From assembly GCA_036785705.1 (NCBI GenBank), contig JAWUZG010000001.1, forward strand, positions 6,324,001 through 6,388,000: a stretch of DNA of 64,000 nucleotides. Reading direction: 5' to 3'. Both the position numbers and the translations under genes were made by a program. The notes under the pieces were generated by a model. The model was given only the letters and a program-made list of their open reading frames with translations. It ran no database searches and had not been told where the DNA came from. The DNA comes from Acanthornis magna (lineage: Eukaryota > Chordata > Aves > Passeriformes > Acanthizidae). Below are positions 51,503-62,100 of the stretch, piece by piece (within the stretch, counting starts at the first letter, position 1; each line of letters opens with the position of its first letter).

Positions 51503-51856
51503 TGCGCTGCGCCGGGCGGCGGAGCGCGGCGGGCGGCACCGCCGCACTCCCCCGGCAGCCGCGGCGGCAGCCAGCGAGCCCCAGCCCGGCCCGGGCGCTG
51601 CCGCCGCGCGGGGCCGTGGTGGCGGCCGCGGAGCCCTGAGCGCCCGCGGGGGAGCGGCGCTGCGAGCCGCCCCCCAGCCCGGTCTGTGCCCGGCGGGAGA
51701 GGCGGCGAGCCGCGGCGGCCATGGGCAACGAGGCGAGCCTGGAAGGAGGCGAAGGGATGGGCACTTTCCCCGAAGGGGCGGCTGCAGCCGGGGATGGCGG
51801 CGGCTCCGCGGCCCCCTTGCAGAGCCTGGTCCCGGCCGGGGTGGAGGCGGACCTGA
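51497..51856 (+). other. Upstream ORF overlapping the PCLO start codon
   Basis: An ATG at 51,497 (A at -3, C at +4, an adequate context) opens a 119-codon frame that is out of frame with PCLO, passes over the PCLO ATG at 51,721 and stops at a TGA at 51,854-51,856. If transcription starts upstream of 51,497, ribosomes translating it could not reinitiate at the PCLO ATG, so it would lower PCLO translation. The peptide is Arg/Ala/Pro-rich, as GC-rich sequence dictates, and I do not propose a function for it. Confidence 0.35.
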
Positions 51857-51962
51857 GCCAGCTGAGCGAGGAGGAGAGGAGGCAGATCGCCGCTGTCATG
51901 TCAAGGGCGCAGGGGCTGCCCAGAGGGAACCTCGCCGGCGCGGAGCCGCCTCCCATGCAAAG
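51721..51962 (+). CDS. PCLO: Piccolo, coding exon 1 (residues 1-80 and part of 81)
   Basis: Piccolo is the giant (about 5,000-residue in mammals) scaffold of the cytomatrix at the presynaptic active zone; it organises synaptic-vesicle clusters, actin and release-site proteins together with Bassoon. This exon encodes the conserved N-terminus: MGNEASLEGGEG, then a variable Ala/Gly stretch, then GVEADLSQLSEEERRQIAAVM and SRAQGLPRG, which closely match vertebrate Piccolo. The first ATG with a strong Kozak context starts exactly at that N-terminus. Gly2 followed by Ser6 fits an N-myristoylation signal, a modification known for Bassoon. Homology with mammalian Piccolo (…MHRKQELD) places the exon end after AG of the Arg81 codon, giving MQR-HPEPD across the junction. 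The following bases are GC rather than GT (see intron 1). A GTCAAG at 51,900 is an in-frame alternative donor but would delete conserved residues. Confidence 0.95.
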
Positions 51963-52775
51963 GCATGCACGGAAAATCTCCCTTCTCCCGCTCCTCCCTT
52001 CCCCCTTCTCCGTCTCCTCGCGGTGGGGCGGGGGGCGAGTCGCAATACGATCCGGGCCCGCTGCACCCGGAGCCGGCTTTCTATTTTGCTGGCAGAGGGA
52101 GGGAAGGGGTGGCTGCACGGGCGCGGGCACCAGGACGGAGCCTGCACCCTCTGGCTTTTCCCACTACAGTGGTCTCTGCTAATAACGGCGGTCCCCGGTT
52201 CCGTGGGCTGCGCCCTCCTTTCCTCCCTTGCTCTGATCTGGAGCACGGGCAGTTTCTGTATCTGGGGCGGGGAGAGATGTGCAGACACCGTTCTGGTTTT
52301 TTGTGTGCGGGTGTGTGCTTTACGGGGCTGGATGCCCCACAGATCCGGTAGTAGCGAGGGAAGCTCTCCCCCGGGGCGGATGGGTTCTGCAAGCATCTGG
52401 AGACAGAATCTTGTTGAATCTTCCAAAGCTGTTGGGCATAATGCATTTGCTGGCTGTTACTCTGCCAGTTCTGAACCTCTACAACTATCATTTGGCTTCA
52501 TTAAATAGTCATGGATTGAGGAGGTCTGTTTCAGTCTATTTTTTCTCCCTTATTTTCCTTCTCGATTTTTTTGTCCTTTTTTGTTGGAAGGAGAGAGGTC
52601 AAATAATAGATTCAATTGATTGCCACGGCATTCAGTGCTCTGGACAGTCATGGCTTTGCCTCACTGTGCCTCTGCGAAGGCTGGGGGAATTTCCTTCCCC
52701 CTTCTTTCCCTGCCCCTCGGCGAATTCACAGCCCGACGTGCAACAAGCCTGCCCTCCGCCCGGCTTCTCGGGGCT

Positions 52776-52924
52776 GTCGCTGTCCGCGGTCCAGAGCCAC
52801 CAGCCCTGCCCGGCCCCGTGTCTCTGTCCGTGGTCCCGAGCCACCAGCCCTGCCCGGCCCCGTGTCTCTGTCCGTGGTCCCGAGCCACCAGCCCTGCCCG
52901 GCCCCGTGTCGCTGTCCGCGGTGC
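52776..52924 (+). repeat. 44-bp GC-rich minisatellite in PCLO intron 1
   Basis: About 3.3 copies of a 44-bp unit containing AGCCACCAGCCCTGCCCGGC and CCCGTGTCTCTGTCCGTGGT. Copies begin at 52,795, 52,839 and 52,883 (AGCCACCAG), and the CTGTCCGYGGT core recurs at 52,779, 52,823, 52,867 and 52,911. Because 44 is not a multiple of three, the same peptides appear in successive frames, and long frames cross it on both strands. The two middle copies are identical over most of their length, which suggests recent duplication. Confidence 0.93.
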
Positions 52925-52928
52925 TGGA
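52908..52928 (-). promoter_or_regulatory. RE1/NRSE-like site (REST silencer motif)
   Basis: Read on the minus strand, CCAGCACC, two spacer bases, then GGACAGCG match the canonical 21-bp RE1 (TTCAGCACC-NN-GGACAGCGCC) at about 18 of 21 positions, with both half-sites in the normal spacing. REST represses neuronal genes in non-neuronal cells through such sites, and PCLO is a neuronal gene, so position (about 950 bases into intron 1) and gene identity fit. The three earlier minisatellite copies keep the GGACAG half but have lost the CAGCACC half. Binding is inferred, not shown. Confidence 0.65.
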
Positions 52929-53919
52929 CCTCCTCCCGGCCCGGCCCGTCATCCAAGGCCGGCGCCGCTGTTGCTCTCCGACTCCGGGGCTGGGTGTGTT
53001 GTTTGTCTTGAAGGAGGAAGCTGAAAGGAGCCTCCTCGATTAACTGTTTCACGGTGCATTGACCTCACCCCACATAAATGCATAGTCAGTTTATATAATA
53101 TCAGGTTTATATAAGTGAATTCTAGAAGAGAGGCAGGGAGGGTGGGACTAAATTAATTCTTGGGCAAATTACTGGAGTCACTGAGATTATATCTGAGATG
53201 ATGGTCACCATTTTTTAAAACTGGAAGTCAAATCTTCCTATTTCATGTCTTGCTAAATTATTGATCAGGCATTACCGCTGTGTGTAAAATAAAATTTTCC
53301 ATTCAATTTAGGTTTCTGCCCATCTTCTATAGATGTTAATGAGGAAAAGAAATATTCTTTAGTTCTGTGAAACTAAGGTCAAAATTCCCTTTTGTATAAC
53401 CATCTATGAACAAAGACACAAGTACTTTGAAACTTTTGTTTCCTTGCTAATATTCTAATAAAAAGTAAGATAAATGCTCTTGGAAGACTTTAGAATAGGC
53501 TGAACTCTTTGCAATGTGAATATCTCTGCATTTATAAATGGCTGCTTTCCTACAAACATATTTATATCAGAAGCTACTTTGATCTTGTTACCATGCCACA
53601 CTTCCACCCTCTATTTAAAGTAAAGACACTCTAAATTTGTGAATTACAGCCTTTACCTTATGTCAGAATTTCAGCTTTGACTATTATAGCAGTTCTCATC
53701 ATAGTATCTTCATGCCTGTCCCACTGTAATGAAGTTACTACTTGTCTTGTCTCTTGGTTTGTGGCTTTGTTTGCTCCTCTTGCCCACCTCTATTTGCTAT
53801 TGAGATCTACCAAGAATGGTAGGGGTAATTATCAAGAACCTGATACAAACAAAACCCTTGGAGTAAGACTCTTCTAAGGATTAAAGATCACCGTCTTCCA
53901 GATTAAAACTGGAACTAGA

Positions 53920-53963
53920 TTTTTTTTGTTTGTTTTTTTGTTTGTTTTTTTGTTTGTTTTTTT
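53920..53963. repeat. (GTTTGTTTTTTT)n, 12-bp simple repeat
   Basis: Three tandem copies of GTTTGTTTTTTT following a T run, inside PCLO intron 1. Confidence 0.9.
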
Positions 53964-55805
53964 ACAGCTCAAATGTTAAGTGTGATCAAAAGAGGAATTC
54001 TGGCTTCTGTTCATATAGCTTTGCATTATAGCAGTGTCCTTATTGTAGCATCTGTTAATTTTTAACATGTTGACTGGATTTTGCCTTCGTGATTTCCATT
54101 ACAACACTAGAGATTAATAATTATTTCCTACTCTAAATGCTTTCATTCCTGCTCCCAAAGTAACCCTAGTCTTAAAGTGTATAAATTCCTCATGACTGAT
54201 GGTATCCTGGAGTAACAATTTTTGCAAATACAGACTTTTTAATAGTAAGTAATGTATATGCCAGATAACATAGCTGCACCTTTACCACCTCTAAATGAAT
54301 GTTGTACCTTCTAGAATTTCTGTAGACTTTAGCTTTTAAGTCTTGTGAATTTTAATATAAGCATTTAGACCTAGAGCACCTAAAGTTAACTGCCTATTCA
54401 GATGTACCTTCTATTTTTTTTTTAATGTTTTTTTCTTGAGGTTCCAGTCAGATGTTTAGGATCTGTGGAAATCTTTCTATCCTATTTCAATTACCAGTCT
54501 TCAGAAAATTCATGGTTGGGAAATTTATCTGAAACAAACACAGTCAATTTGTAAGGAAGTTCCATTTGTTCTAGCTTCATCAAATGACTCTGTAACTGTG
54601 CCAGTGTCCACTTGCTGAGGAATTGTTCTATATCTGAAAGGATTAGATGCTCAACTGAATATTTGATCATGTAATACAGCTGCTTGGTTTTTTTTGGTTT
54701 TTTTTGTTGTTTTTTTTTCCTCCCAGTTGATTAAGTTGGTCACCATAGATATCAATTAAAAAAATAAAGAAGCTTCATTTTGATAGGAAATGCCAAGAAA
54801 TCTTGCTGAGTATCACACTTCTGAAGTATATTTATGGTGTATTTTCCAGAAAAAAATATATTTTTTTTAGTGTCTTTGTTCTATTGACCAAAAAAAAGAG
54901 TCAGCCACTAGGGTATGTGTAAGCTCATACATATCTTGCCTGTAAATAAGAAAAGATCTAACTGTTGTTGAGTTACATTGTTATAGCATTTGTCTTTGAA
55001 ACTATTTATACTTATGAATGGGGAAAAGGCATGCCTTCTTAGTAGGTGTTTATGGTTATGGAACTCAAGAACTAGACCAATAGCCTTTTTGTTAAGTCTC
55101 TGCTTACTCCAAAGTAAGCTTTGATTTGGCTGTAATATGTAAATGAATAGAGATGAGTTCCATGAATCAAGACCAAAATGAGGGGAAACACAGCAGCACA
55201 AAGAAAAGCATTATGTGAGGGAGAATGGAATTATTTTGTTTGTTGGCCCTGCTTTGAAGGCTTTAAAACAATTGTGGGTTTTTCATGATTCAAATGGTTC
55301 AAAAGTTAGAAAATTCTTGTCAAATAAAGACAAGATTTAGTTTGAGGGTTCTGATTCTTCAGTTCAATTAAAATTTTCAATGTCAGTCTGTAGCTGGCTG
55401 TAAAATGGTTGTAGAAAAGAAGGCTTCAACTCTCAGGTAGCTCCAACTAAATGGAGCAAGTCCTGGCTTTTGACAGAAGTAACGTTTCTCAAGAAGCTTG
55501 TCTTTTCAAGGCTTTTTCTTCCACTAGTTAACCACGCTCTGTCTCCATTGCTTAGAAACATTGTTATGTACAAAGGCAAGACAACTCAGGTCTTCAGAAT
55601 ACACCAGGAGCCTTGAAGAGAATCACCTGAATTTATTTCCTAGATTCATGGGTTTTAATCTCATTTCAGGTCCAGATATATGATCAGGTGGAAATTTATG
55701 GAAAACATTATTTGAGAAAAATGCAAGCTGGAGCAAAATTCTGTTCCAGTACGGATTCACAGTTACTTTTTCTTGCTAATGGCCAAGTTAAATTTCTAAA
55801 AATAT

Positions 55806-55848
55806 TGGGGGTTTTTTTGCTTGTTTTTTTGTTTTGTTTTGGTTTTTT
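55806..55848. repeat. T/G-rich simple tract
   Basis: GGGGGTTTTTTTGCTTGTTT and following T/G-rich sequence within intron 1; low complexity, no other signal. Confidence 0.75.
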
Positions 55849-56700
55849 CTATCCCCTCTCTCTTTACGCTGTAGAGTTTGGGCATGGTGCTCTATTTCCA
55901 GACCAGAATTTCAGAATTTCCAGAATTTCAATGGTACTGTGGATTTATTTTTTCCCCCTCTCCCTTTTCACTCTTTATCATTGTTGAATGAACCCTTCCA
56001 AGAATTTGAGCATTTGCAAACACGAATGCTGGAAGTGTACCAGACTGCTGCTAATAGACTAGTTGAAATGTGTTCATACGGTAAGCAGTGCCTCTTCAGA
56101 TAAACCTAGGGTGCTTATCTAAATAACAAGAAACAGAACTGCAGGTAGACCTACCTAGTTGCTAATGAGAGTATAAAATTGCTCTTTTAACAAGCAAAAA
56201 TGCCAAATATTTGGAAGAATTAGTTATCATTGGGCTTTTCTGAACTGTCTTCTTTATGAGTTAATCAATGTTCAGTGACGCCAATGGAAAAACACCTACT
56301 CACTTCAGTGGGTTGCACATTAAGGTCATAAACTTCCAAGTATTGCGGTCAATATGTACACAGGAATGGGAAAGGATACATGGAATTGTGGAAGGCTGGA
56401 AAGAGTTTGTCATTAATTGTTAATACTTTAACAAGTATTACTTGTGGAAATTTTTAATTAACAGAAAAAGTCAGATACAAGATTACAAGAATCCCATGAT
56501 GTGAGAATTAAACACTCAGAAATGTCTACCACTTAGCTTTGTCCTTTTGTATTGCCATTGGTAGCCATGTAATAGAAACTAAATATTAAGCAGAAATACT
56601 GGTAAACGCATGGTGACATTAACAATGTAAAATATATTTTTAATGTGGTTACTGTAGATGGTTCTGCAGACTTCTGAAAAAACTCTTTTTAAAATTGTGC

Positions 56701-56724
56701 ATTTATTTATTTATTTATTTATTA
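56701..56724. repeat. (ATTT)n microsatellite
   Basis: About six ATTT units in PCLO intron 1. Confidence 0.95.
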
Positions 56725-57895
56725 GTCAAGGAAGGCAATTAAATATAATAAGTGATTGTTTATTTTGCTCATGAATACCCAAGAAGAAATGTCATGTCTG
56801 GAAAACTAAGATCACAGTTGACTGGTTCTCTCAAAGTGAAAAGTGAGAGTTTTATATTTGCAACATTTCTGTGACACTGAAGAGAACACTGTATCTTCCA
56901 GCAGAAGCTCAGTGATAGCACTGAATAGAATATTTTATTACATCCCTGAGCATTAGCAGCAAAACCAATATTATTTCCCCCAGCTACAGCCAAGAATAGC
57001 AACAAGTAGAATACTGTGCCACATATGAAGCCATGGTCTTGGTTTTGGTTCCTACATTCTTAGTTTCATTTTCTCCTGTATGAACATACAGCAAAATATT
57101 GTTGCAAGGATTTTTCTCGATTCTCTAATTTTTTTTGGGATTTATTTTTTTTGTAATACTGGGCAGTGTTGGGATGGAATTTTTGGGATGACTCTGAGAA
57201 GGAGTATGGTAGCTACTTGCAAAGAAGGAAAAAAGGGTTCAGGGCTAGCTGTGAACTGACATCTGTTTTATCTGAGGGAGAACTCTTCTGATTTGTAAGT
57301 GGATGGGTGCCAAAATAAATACTTGACAAAGAAGCATGTACTCCTTAACATACATGAATTTTAGGAGTTTAAGTCCCTGCTGCTTATTAAATTGTAAATA
57401 TATCCAAATTTTGTACAAGTAACCAGAACACAAGTACATAAGCATTTTGCATTGTGCATTGTTTTCTTGTATGGCTGTTCTTTCATCTAATTTTGACACT
57501 TCTGTTTCTTTTAGTCTTCTGTATGCCTGTTTTTGTATCCCAAGGGGCAGGGTGGAGAGTTAATCATTTGGATATAGATATAATAGGAAGTTTTAGCTTT
57601 GAATTCTTCAGAATTCTGAAAAAAGGGGTACTTGGGAAAATGTTACTGTATTACATTATTTTCTAAAGAATTAAATAATGTATGACTGAATACTTGTATA
57701 AGCCTTTAAAGAACAGTGATTATTTAACTAATATGTACACTCACCTTGTTATAAGCCTTGGTCTTGAAAACACTTAAGCACTGAGAAACTTCCCAGCACT
57801 ACCAATGCACTTCTAGGGTTACTGATAAATCTTGTTTTATCTAATTTTTCTAGTATTATGCATTATTTTAATTTTATTGCATTTTCTCTCTGCAG

Positions 57896-59132
57896 ACATC
57901 CTGAACCTGATACAAGCCACCATCCCAGACAACCAGGTAAGCCTCCAGATCCAGGACCACCAGGTTTAAGTAAAAGCAGAACAGTAGATGTGCTGAAGAC
58001 AGAACAACGGGCACCTGGACGGAGCCCTTCTACTCTTAGCCTCCGGGAATCAAAGTCCAGGACTGATTTTAAAGAAGATCAGAAGCCAAGTATGATGCCC
58101 AGTTTTCTCTCAGAAGCCAGTCCATTCAGTGCAGTCACTTCAGTTGTGAACAAATTCAATCCCTTTGATTTGATATCGGATTCAGATACAACCCATGAAG
58201 AAGCCAGTAAGAAACAAAAAGTTCCCCCAAAAGAGCAAGGGAAACCTGAGGAGCAGAGGAGCCCTGCGAAACATCCAACTCAGCCACAGCCTCCGAAGCC
58301 AGCTGGTCAACAACAAGGACCTGTCAGACAAACTGAGTCTTCCAAGCCAGTGCCTCAGCAGCAGCCTGGGGAACCAAAGCAAGTTCAGAAACCAGGCCAT
58401 GGCCAACCAGCAGATGCTAAGCAAGAGCAAGCAAAACAACCGCCCCAGCCACGGGGACCACAAAAATCTCAGCCACAACCATCAGAACCAATGAAACCAG
58501 TTCAACAAACTTCTGCAAAACCTTCATCAGGCCCAACAAAACCATCCCCACAGCAACCAGACAGTGCTAAAACGACGTCCCAAGCACCACCTCCCACAAA
58601 ACCACCATCACAGCAGCCAGGACCTGCGAAACAACCATCGCAACAGCCTGCACGGCAAGGAGGTCCTGTAAAGCCATCTTCCCAGCAGGCAGGGCCTCCA
58701 AAACAGCCTCCTCAGCAACCTGGACCTGAAAAGCCATCTGCTCAGCAAACAGGACCTGCAAAACAGCCACCACAGCCTGGATCTGGGAAGCCACCTCCGC
58801 AGCAAACAGGGCTTGTAAAACAAGTGCCACCACAGGCAGGGCCTATGAAACCACCATCTCAGACTGCAGGGCCCGCAAAGCCCCCGGCACAACAACCAGG
58901 ACCTACAAAACCACCCGGCCAGCAACCAGGGCCTGAGAAACCCCCGCAGCAAAAGCAAGCTGGTGCAAGCCAACCCCCCGAGTCCGCCCCAAAGAAAACC
59001 TTCTGTCCTCTTTGTACGACCACCGAGCTGCTGCTGCACACTCCTGAAAAGGCCAACTACAACACGTGCACCCAGTGTCACACTGTAGTCTGCAGCCTGT
59101 GTGGATTCAATCCTAATCCTCATATCACAGAG
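57896..59132 (+). CDS. PCLO: Piccolo, coding exon 2 (residues 81-493)
   Basis: The exon is bounded by CTCTCTGCAG and a strong donor GAG-GTGAGT (phase 0). It continues Piccolo with [20 protein letters not shown], then the conserved [16 protein letters not shown] and [16 protein letters not shown] (about residues 164-178). Residues 294-436 hold about 14 degenerate ten-residue repeats of the type P-x-K-P-P-x-Q-Q-P-G, the Pro/Gln-rich region known from mammalian Piccolo. The exon ends inside the first Piccolo/Bassoon zinc finger: Cys451, 454, 472, 475, 480 and 483 are present (CPLC, CTQC, CSLC), followed by [10 protein letters not shown]. The last cysteine pair of the family (CLNC type) must lie in exon 3, beyond the window. 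In mammals this zinc finger binds the Rab-associated protein PRA1. The open frame starts before the splice site and continues 14 codons past the donor; neither extension is part of the protein. Long minus-strand frames over it (183, 98 and 88 codons) are shadows. Confidence 0.96.
58524..58962 (+). repeat. PCLO: Coding 30-bp degenerate repeat, PxKPPxQQPG
   Basis: Within exon 2 about 14 units of roughly 30 bases, with small insertions and one short unit, encode the Pro/Lys/Gln decapeptide repeat. Codon-level divergence between units (CCA/CCT/CCG/CCC for Pro, CAG/CAA for Gln) shows an old array with selection on the protein rather than a recent DNA expansion. Unit number varies between vertebrate Piccolo proteins, so copy number here is likely to be lineage-specific. 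Confidence 0.88.
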
Positions 59133-62100
59133 GTGAGTAATTTTCAAATTGGTGTTCACTACCAGAGCAAAGAATGAAGCTTGTATTTGTTATATTGAAA
59201 CTTCAGATGTGCTACAGTATATCATCATGGTAACTTAACATGTTCAGAGAAAACATTAATGATGTTTATTAATGATATTTCAGAAAACTGCTTATGGGTA
59301 AAGCAGGGTAAAACTGGAGTAAAGAAAAGAAGGCAATGGTTCTCTGCTCGCATAGATTTAGAACTGTTTTCTCATCTTTTCATATAAAAAGAGGAGAAAC
59401 CCCAATGTGACTTTTGTCTCATTTTGATTGATTTTAAGCACCTGCTCTCTGTTTATAATCTGACCACAATACTCATGCACAACTATATTTATAAATAATT
59501 TTTTCTGCTATAAAAACTAAGAAAAAAAAATCAGTCTTCATAGCTCCAGTGTGTGGCTTAGAAAAGGATGTGGAGTGGATTTGCTTTACAACGGTTGTCA
59601 GTGTTCATTTGTTGAAAGCTGAGTCATGAGTATGACTTGGTGGTATGGGGGTTATTTCATTCTTGCGGGATGTTAAGAAAAATCTCTGTGGACTCTTTCT
59701 AACCTTGATCACCATTCTTACTGTAATTCTATAACCTAAAAATGGAATAGAAAGCAATATTAGGACTTCAAATGAATTTATTTTAACCTGAAATTTTTGG
59801 TACCTTGATTTATTCCTTAATACATATTCTTTATTGCTCTGCACGGGAGTTAGGCTTCGTGTGACTGTTTGATCTCTTCTTACTTCTTGAAAAGCTTCTT
59901 GAACATCCGGATATGCTAATTTTAAATTTGCAATGTAGTTTGGGTTTGTTTACAGTACCAACCCTTTTATCAATTTATTGAAGTTCAAGCATTGTAGACC
60001 TGGTACCAAAGGCTAACTAATGATAAATAGTCAGAAGGGATATTTGGAAAACTTTTTTTTCTCATGCTTTGGTATTAGTTTAGCTGATCAGACATGCACA
60101 CAGGAAGAAGTACAGACTGCTATGGTATTCTGAGACTGAAAAATAGTACCTATATATTTAAAATTGAATCAAATAATTTCTGAAGCTGGAAAGGTCCTCT
60201 GGATATGGTGTAGCCTAAGCTTCTACCCAAAATAGTGTCTCCTAAAGCAGGTTTAGTCAGTTTTGAATATCTTTAAGGATGGAGGCTTGACAGTCTTTCT
60301 GGGCAATCTGCGTTCTCAGTACCACAGTGATTTGAGGACATTGCTAGCTGTTGGTTTACTTTCCAGTACATATGTTTATTTGTGGGTACCTGGTAACAAA
60401 CAGCAGACTTTTTGCATCCAGAAATATGATCTATTGGTTTCTTGTTAAAATTGCAAATTTAAGCCTGAAAAGCTAATTGCAATAGCACATTGCTTGGTTT
60501 AGGAGTGTAACATCATCTTTGAGTTTAGGGAAATTGAGGATTGAGATAACTGGAACTAAATCCTGGACTGGACAAGGAAGGACCTGAACAGCTGTGCGCA
60601 GAAACCTCAGAGCACCTGCAACTAACCAGGTGTCTGTATTTCAGGGTCTGCATGAGGAAAGATCATTCTGGCCTGTTGGTGTAAAAAAAGATATATTTAT
60701 ATATAACAGGCAAGAAATGTGATGTGCTGATATTAAAGTCAAAGAGGAAGTTTCATTGCAAAGCTTTTCCTTCAAGTTCTGATGGCATTCTTAGGCCACA
60801 ATTTCTTACATTTTTTTGTGAGTGCTGAGTTAATTTCCATAGTGTGCTCCTGGAGTCTCTTGGAGCCCCAAGTTTGCCTTCCTTTAAAAGCTTCAGATTT
60901 CCCATGGAAATGGTCAACAACTTTGGTGTGTTCAAATGAAACAGGTTTTGAGAGAGAATTTATGTAAGAAGATTTCCAAGTATTTGGAAATTCTGTGAAT
61001 AACTACTAGTTTTTGAAGTGGGTACTCTGTAAGTGTGAAATTCAGGACTTTTAGACAATAAATACAGCTGCATTTAAGACAAACTGATTGCATACATATG
61101 TAAAAGCAGATTTGAATTTCATATTACATATTGAAATAAACACAGGATATGCATTTATTTTATGATGAAATCTTTTCAGCAAATGAAGGTATTGGACATC
61201 TAATTTATTCAGCTATTAGTTCCAATCTCCTGACTCCCACTCAGGCTTTTCTCATTTGCTCAGCTTTGCACCACCAGCTGTCTTGCTGAAACTTCATTGT
61301 GGGTGTCCTGCTCCAGTCTGCCATTGAAGTGTGACAAAAATCACATCTGACTTTATTACTGAGCATTGGGATCAAAGTAATAGAACCCGCTCTGGCACAT
61401 ACAAAAAAAATCACTTATTTCAGCTGCCAAGGGTCCCACTTGAGTTATTTTCACACTTTTCTTCTAGTTGCTGTTTCCTTTCAGTATTTAGATTATTAAG
61501 AAAATTTTCTGATTCCTTTTTTACAATACTTTACCCATTTCTTCTCCTCTATACAGAAAATAATGGTTTGTGACTTGGCTGTCAATTTTCTTGTTTATGG
61601 TACAAGTTTTTTCCTTTGGCTTCTTGTCTTTTCAGTTCTCCTGAAGTATTGTTGACCAAAAATCTGTGTCTTATCCATGCATTTACTGACTCTATTGTTA
61701 TACTTTGGCTTTCCCCGCTGTTATTTTTGCCATGTTTCATGATTCTGGAATCCTACATTGTGCTTTTCCCATGTCCTTTATAATTGCTGATTTTATTGCT
61801 TTTTTTAAATGCATTACTGTTTGGGATACAATAATTTCAAATTGGATGTGGGGAGTGGAAGGCATTTATTTAGAAAAAAAATTGACTTCTGTTCTCTGAA
61901 GTTTTCTCTTGTGCAGCTGCTTGAATTGTTTTCCTGAGATACTCTTACAAGTTTCTTACAAAGTAGCGCAGTCTCCAAAACTAATTGAGTGAATAATTTT
62001 TCCAATGTAGATCTTTCTAAATTTCTATGTACTATATTTCTAGCAGATTCTGAAAAGAATTTAACAAGCTTTACAAACTGGCTTAGGAAGAAGATTGCAT

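Follow-up and report, generated by a model that had tools for sequence, protein, structure and literature searches.

What does a short tandem repeat carrying REST-like motifs do in the first intron of a neuronal gene? REST silences neuronal genes outside neurons, and PCLO is the gene of a large active-zone scaffold. A sequence-only reading of a 64,000-nucleotide stretch from the bird Acanthornis magna (hereafter the window, in whose coordinates all positions are given) had placed a minisatellite in PCLO intron 1, and had proposed that its units form a row of one full RE1 and three half-sites that may tune repression by copy number. Here we ask which parts of this row look like REST sites, how the arrangement may have arisen, and whether the number of units is likely to matter.

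Results and Discussion

The ATG at 51,721 on the plus strand starts an open frame that reads MGNEASLEGGEGMGTFPEG...AEPPPMQR and constitutes the coding part of exon 1 (51,721-51,962, MGNEASLEGG...PPPMQR), as delimited by the open frame and the exon joint. This peptide, which we take to be the N-terminus of PCLO, contains no Pfam family. The phase is kept across the joint 51,962/57,896 into exon 2, the start of which lies in a plus-strand open frame at 57,896-59,177 (the latter coordinate being the end of the frame). In frame with exon 1, this second frame encodes a Piccolo zinc finger (PF05715, zf-piccolo; 72.6 bits, E 3.4e-20), and a search for PDB relatives of the same frame at E 0.001 returned none. 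Since the array lies between exon 1 and the zinc-finger frame, the earlier placement in PCLO intron 1 is confirmed.

Intron 1 itself (51,963-57,895, plus strand) was defined by a frame-consistent joint, the only one tried. The joint pairs a GC donor of poor consensus (CAAAG/GCATGC, 51,955-51,972) with a normal acceptor (CTCTCTGCAG/A, 57,886-57,896). The intron therefore looks like a GC-AG intron, and a sequence variant at the donor is possible. Tandem repeats of 57 bp and 30 bp also occur in the exon 2 frame (58,665-58,946), where they fall in a proline/glutamine-rich stretch before the zinc finger.

The repeat in the intron is genuine. Tandem Repeats Finder describes an array with a 44-bp unit and 3.4 copies at 52,775-52,922 (no strand assigned) with 95% matches, 0% indels and a score of 261. 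Minisatellites consist of head-to-tail units of about 10-60 bp, and the array is of this kind. The motif CTGTCCGYGGT occurs at 52,780, 52,824, 52,868 and 52,912, in steps of exactly 44 bp, and nowhere else in the window; none of 100 dinucleotide shuffles contained four matches. The four copies and their exact spacing thus agree with the sequence-only reading, although each of the positions given there was one base too low. A protein-coding role for the array was ruled out, because the unit length of 44 is not divisible by 3 and the array sits between the two PCLO exons. No known RNA family was matched at gathering score in the 64-kb window.

We also compared the flanks with a doubled unit in search of diverged extra copies. 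The 60 bases to the left scored 27, a value reached by 87 of 2000 shuffles, and the 60 bases to the right scored 28, reached by 479 of 2000. Neither flank is convincing as an extra diverged unit: the similarity that could reveal the source unit of the array is slight to the left, and to the right it is not detectable.

We defined an RE1 of canonical spacing as a left and a right half, each with at most one mismatch, in correct orientation and separated by 2 bp. The last copy in the array (copy 4) reads TCCAGCACCGCGGACAGCGAC on the minus strand at 52,908-52,928, with the left half at 52,920-52,928, the spacer at 52,918-52,919 and the right half at 52,908-52,917. It agrees with the 21-mer consensus TTCAGCACCACGGACAGCGCC at 18 of 21 positions, the mismatches being positions 2, 10 (in the spacer) and 20. 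The left half TCCAGCACC differs from TTCAGCACC at one position, the right half GGACAGCGAC matches GGACAGCGCC at 9 of 10, and the spacer is 2 bp in the correct orientation. The earlier description of a near-complete minus-strand REST site with about 18 of 21 matches was accurate.

Against the 14 fixed core positions TCAGCACCnnGGACAG, copy 4 has a single mismatch, which is the tolerance of a published zebrafish scan (PMC3531662). A strict degenerate 17-mer, NTYAGMRCCNNRGMSAG, has been employed in Xenopus (PMC4430910); with no mismatch allowed, copy 4 fails this pattern at position 2 only (T to C). A C at position 2 is also present in the site given for mir-9-1 (PMC1794552). Copy 4 consists of 15 array bases (52,908-52,922) and 6 unique bases to their right; exon 1 of PCLO ends 946 bp upstream of it.

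To score these sites, we built a REST model from 15 sequences, namely the consensus and 14 distinct miRNA-locus sites (Table 1 of PMC1794552), the latter taken to be mostly predictions. With this model applied to all positions on both strands, copy 4 obtained 25.7 bits. This is the top score in the window, and 11 of the 15 model sites have lower leave-one-out scores. Taken together, these matches make it well supported, at the level of sequence, that copy 4 is a strong RE1.

Could such a match be a coincidence in GC-rich repeat DNA, neither bound nor functional? Chance rates were derived from simulation and from exact calculation. No score of 25.7 bits or more occurred in two simulations of 6 Mb each, one based on the composition of the window and the other on local composition. 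The exact model-score rate is 6.8e-10 per base at GC 0.37 and rises to at most 9.8e-9 (GC 0.65) over the range GC 0.37-0.75, so that a score of this grade is expected about 0.7-10 times per billion bases and less than 1e-8 times per base at each GC content tried. The array does lie in DNA of GC 0.72-0.76, and a core match with at most one mismatch did arise by chance, once in 6 Mb of the local-composition simulation (1.67e-7 per base). REST sites also turn over: only 8% of NRSE target genes in the frog are reported as common to human and mouse (PMC4430910). However, at GC 0.37-0.75 a stretch of 64 kb is expected to contain 0.005-0.037 core matches of this kind, and the distance from this one to exon 1 of PCLO, a presynaptic gene, is 946 bp. 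We consider a chance match unlikely.

The other three copies had been described as keeping only the GGACAG half, and this is not what we found. Copy 1 (CTCTGGACCGCGGACAGCGAC, 52,776-52,796), copy 2 (CTCGGGACCACGGACAGAGAC, 52,820-52,840) and copy 3 (52,864-52,884, identical in sequence to copy 2), all on the minus strand, each match 16 of 21 consensus positions with the canonical 2-bp spacer. Their left halves match at 6 of 9 positions; their right halves match at 9 of 10 in copy 1 (one mismatch) and at 8 of 10 in copies 2 and 3 (two mismatches). The three left-half mismatches in each copy (positions 1, 4 and 6, of which 4 and 6 belong to the core) exceed the single mismatch allowed for a half. 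On these matches, copies 1-3 are damaged full-length RE1s, not pure half-sites. A reading of all four copies as functional RE1s was rejected, because the left halves of copies 1-3 fail.

Despite this damage, copies 1-3 hold the second to fourth highest REST-model scores in the window (19.1 bits for copy 1, 18.6 bits each for copies 2 and 3). Four of the 15 model sites have lower leave-one-out scores than these copies, and the same model also gives a lower value, 12.8 bits, to a decoy described as a REST non-binder (PMC8639147). The fifth best score in the window (16.1 bits) belongs to TTCAGAAACCAGGCCATGGCC at 58,384-58,404 on the plus strand, inside the PCLO exon 2 frame, and is probably due to chance.

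Each of copies 1-3 obtains its right half from the repeated segment, which also covers the "ACC" at the end of the left half; their 16 matches in 21 are partly a consequence of this inclusion of "ACC". Among the left-half positions that lie beyond the repeated segment, agreement is limited to 3 of 6. We also searched 52,600-53,100 for other arrangements of half-sites, pairing exact GGACAG with left halves of at most two mismatches, a tolerance that leaves out the three-mismatch left halves of copies 1-3. Among the spacers of 0-60 bp tried in this search, only 2 and 46 were found, and within these limits the region contains no atypical RE1 with 8-9 bp spacing.

These scores bear on the idea that REST also binds the three degenerate copies, though weakly, so that more of it gathers next to the full site and PCLO is repressed more strongly in alleles with more units. 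The ranks of copies 1-3 in the window and their distance from the decoy speak for this possibility, as do several published observations. Half-site binding modes are called prevalent across cell types in REST ChIP data (PMC5933800), and ChIP regions that contain only a half-site are reported in PMC3320604, where the cause is left open. In zebrafish, an element with four REST cores is described as suppressing expression in skin and notochord more strongly than elements with fewer cores (PMC3531662). Furthermore, a REST-bound VNTR near MIR137 is reported to give reporter activity that varies by allele (PMC4393679).

Other observations speak against it. In a reporter screen, 509 elements that each have a single half-site are reported to give no significant repression, and the same holds for rearranged half-site pairs with spacers other than 8-9 bp and for weak canonical motifs (PMC9903721). 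The copies in the zebrafish elements are full cores; moreover, four of them suppressed expression in the brain too, and neuron-only embryos were most frequent with the two-core element, not with the four-core one (PMC3531662). Copies 1-3 lack the consensus base at positions 4 and 6 of the left half, and their scores appear to be largely inherited through duplication, given how few left-half positions agree outside the shared segment. A dose effect of this kind strikes us as quite unlikely. Tuning by half-sites, as suggested in the sequence-only reading, is unsupported in view of the lost core positions and of the single half-sites that gave no significant repression (PMC9903721). The half-sites seen in ChIP data (PMC3320604, PMC5933800) do count against an array that is fully passive.

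The sequences at the array ends suggest how this arrangement may have formed. At its two ends the array carries the same 16-base segment, from which copies 2 and 3 differ by two changes that they have in common. Where copy 4 runs into unique flank, copies 1-3 run into the start of the next unit. We propose that the array was born by tandem duplication of DNA to the left of the RE1, with the right edge of the unit falling within the RE1. A duplicate made in this way would contain the right half but only "ACC" from the left half, and hence a crippled RE1; copies 2 and 3 could stem from a further duplication, at a later time, of a unit that had already changed. Because the intact site draws 6 bases from unique flank, and because the end copies are alike and copies 2 and 3 carry the changes, it is plausible that the RE1 predates the repeat. 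A more far-reaching version holds that this breakpoint created a natural dose series, with a single strong REST site and several weak ones, in which the number of units sets the silencing of PCLO and differs between individuals or species. We regard this version as very unlikely; copy-number tuning of PCLO as such is possible but unsupported.

The array coincides with a CpG-rich islet (52,600-52,999, no strand assigned) delimited by sliding composition. In 200-base windows starting at 52,600, 52,700 and 52,800, GC is 0.59-0.76 and CpG o/e is 0.71-0.77; the GC of 0.72-0.76 cited above refers to the last two of these windows. An AT-richer dip divides this islet from the CpG island of exon 1, which fades between the windows starting at 52,200 and 52,400. 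Scanning 52,701-53,000, we found four-run G motifs on the minus strand in two units (starts 52,905 and 52,861; 52,835-52,905), which are possible G-quadruplexes. About 130 bases left of the array, TCAGTGCTCTGGACAG (52,632-52,647, plus strand) is a weak RE1-like match in the opposite orientation with three core mismatches.

It is conceivable that the structure of the repeat, and not REST, is what matters here, with the G-tract motifs and the CpG islet affecting transcription or chromatin of the intron. The two G motifs and the separation of the islet from the exon-1 island are in line with such an effect. However, one loop in the G motif is 10 bases long, a link to regulation is absent here, and four-run G motifs are common in GC-rich minisatellites. 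This makes a structural role of the repeat a distant prospect. Both the islet and the G motifs could be by-products of the expansion of a GC-rich repeat.

The reading that we favor, with a probability of roughly 0.7, is that one genuine RE1 binds REST and silences PCLO outside neurons, and that the 44-bp array is largely passive. REST is predicted to bind 52,908-52,928 in non-neuronal cells and in neural progenitors, where it would recruit its usual corepressors and so keep PCLO off; the array would add little or nothing to REST binding. The single full site is most likely the working part because single half-sites and weak canonical motifs are reported to give no significant repression in the reporter screen (PMC9903721). 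A literature search found no paper pairing PCLO with RE1, NRSF or REST terms, supplementary gene lists not being searchable, and "Pclo" was absent among the matches listed in a broader PCLO/REST search.

Several known systems resemble this locus in part. The canonical RE1 of SYN1 (PMC3821028) has the 17-base core CAGCACCGCGGACAGCG, GC spacer included, in common with copy 4, and both genes are presynaptic; the pig SYN1 core used in this comparison was inferred from a mutagenesis primer by undoing the stated A-to-C change. The pig promoter carrying this A-to-C mutation is reported to give broad expression in zebrafish, based on a single founder (PMC3821028). The SYN1 site lies in a promoter and was tested in transgenic fish, whereas the PCLO site lies in intron 1, has a C at position 2 and is known from its sequence.

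Repeats associated with REST elements provide a second comparison. The 15-bp VNTR at the internal promoter of MIR137 (PMC4393679) likewise belongs to a neuronal gene and is a tandem repeat located at an element linked to REST; it differs from the PCLO array in gene, unit and length, and REST ChIP and polymorphism are both shown for MIR137. The 68-bp VNTR in the PDYN promoter (PMC8201134) is also a minisatellite, again close to the start of a neuronal gene under REST regulation, but it is described with an AP-1-like site, and the REST peaks of PDYN are described separately. The NRSE cassettes designed for use in zebrafish, REx1, REx2 and REx4 (PMC3531662) and 2xNRSE (PMC3529185) also place several REST cores in a row near a promoter. 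In these cassettes all copies are full cores, whereas the PCLO array has one full and three degenerate copies.

Conclusions

That a presynaptic gene has a good RE1 nearby is what one would expect, and MIR137 already provides a published REST-associated VNTR (PMC4393679). If the repeat in PCLO intron 1 varies, that natural variation would serve to test whether it matters to have degenerate REST sites beside a full one; the reporter data on single half-sites suggest that it does not. If the RE1 at the right end of the array is bound, PCLO would be a direct REST target in this lineage by way of an exactly located 21-mer.
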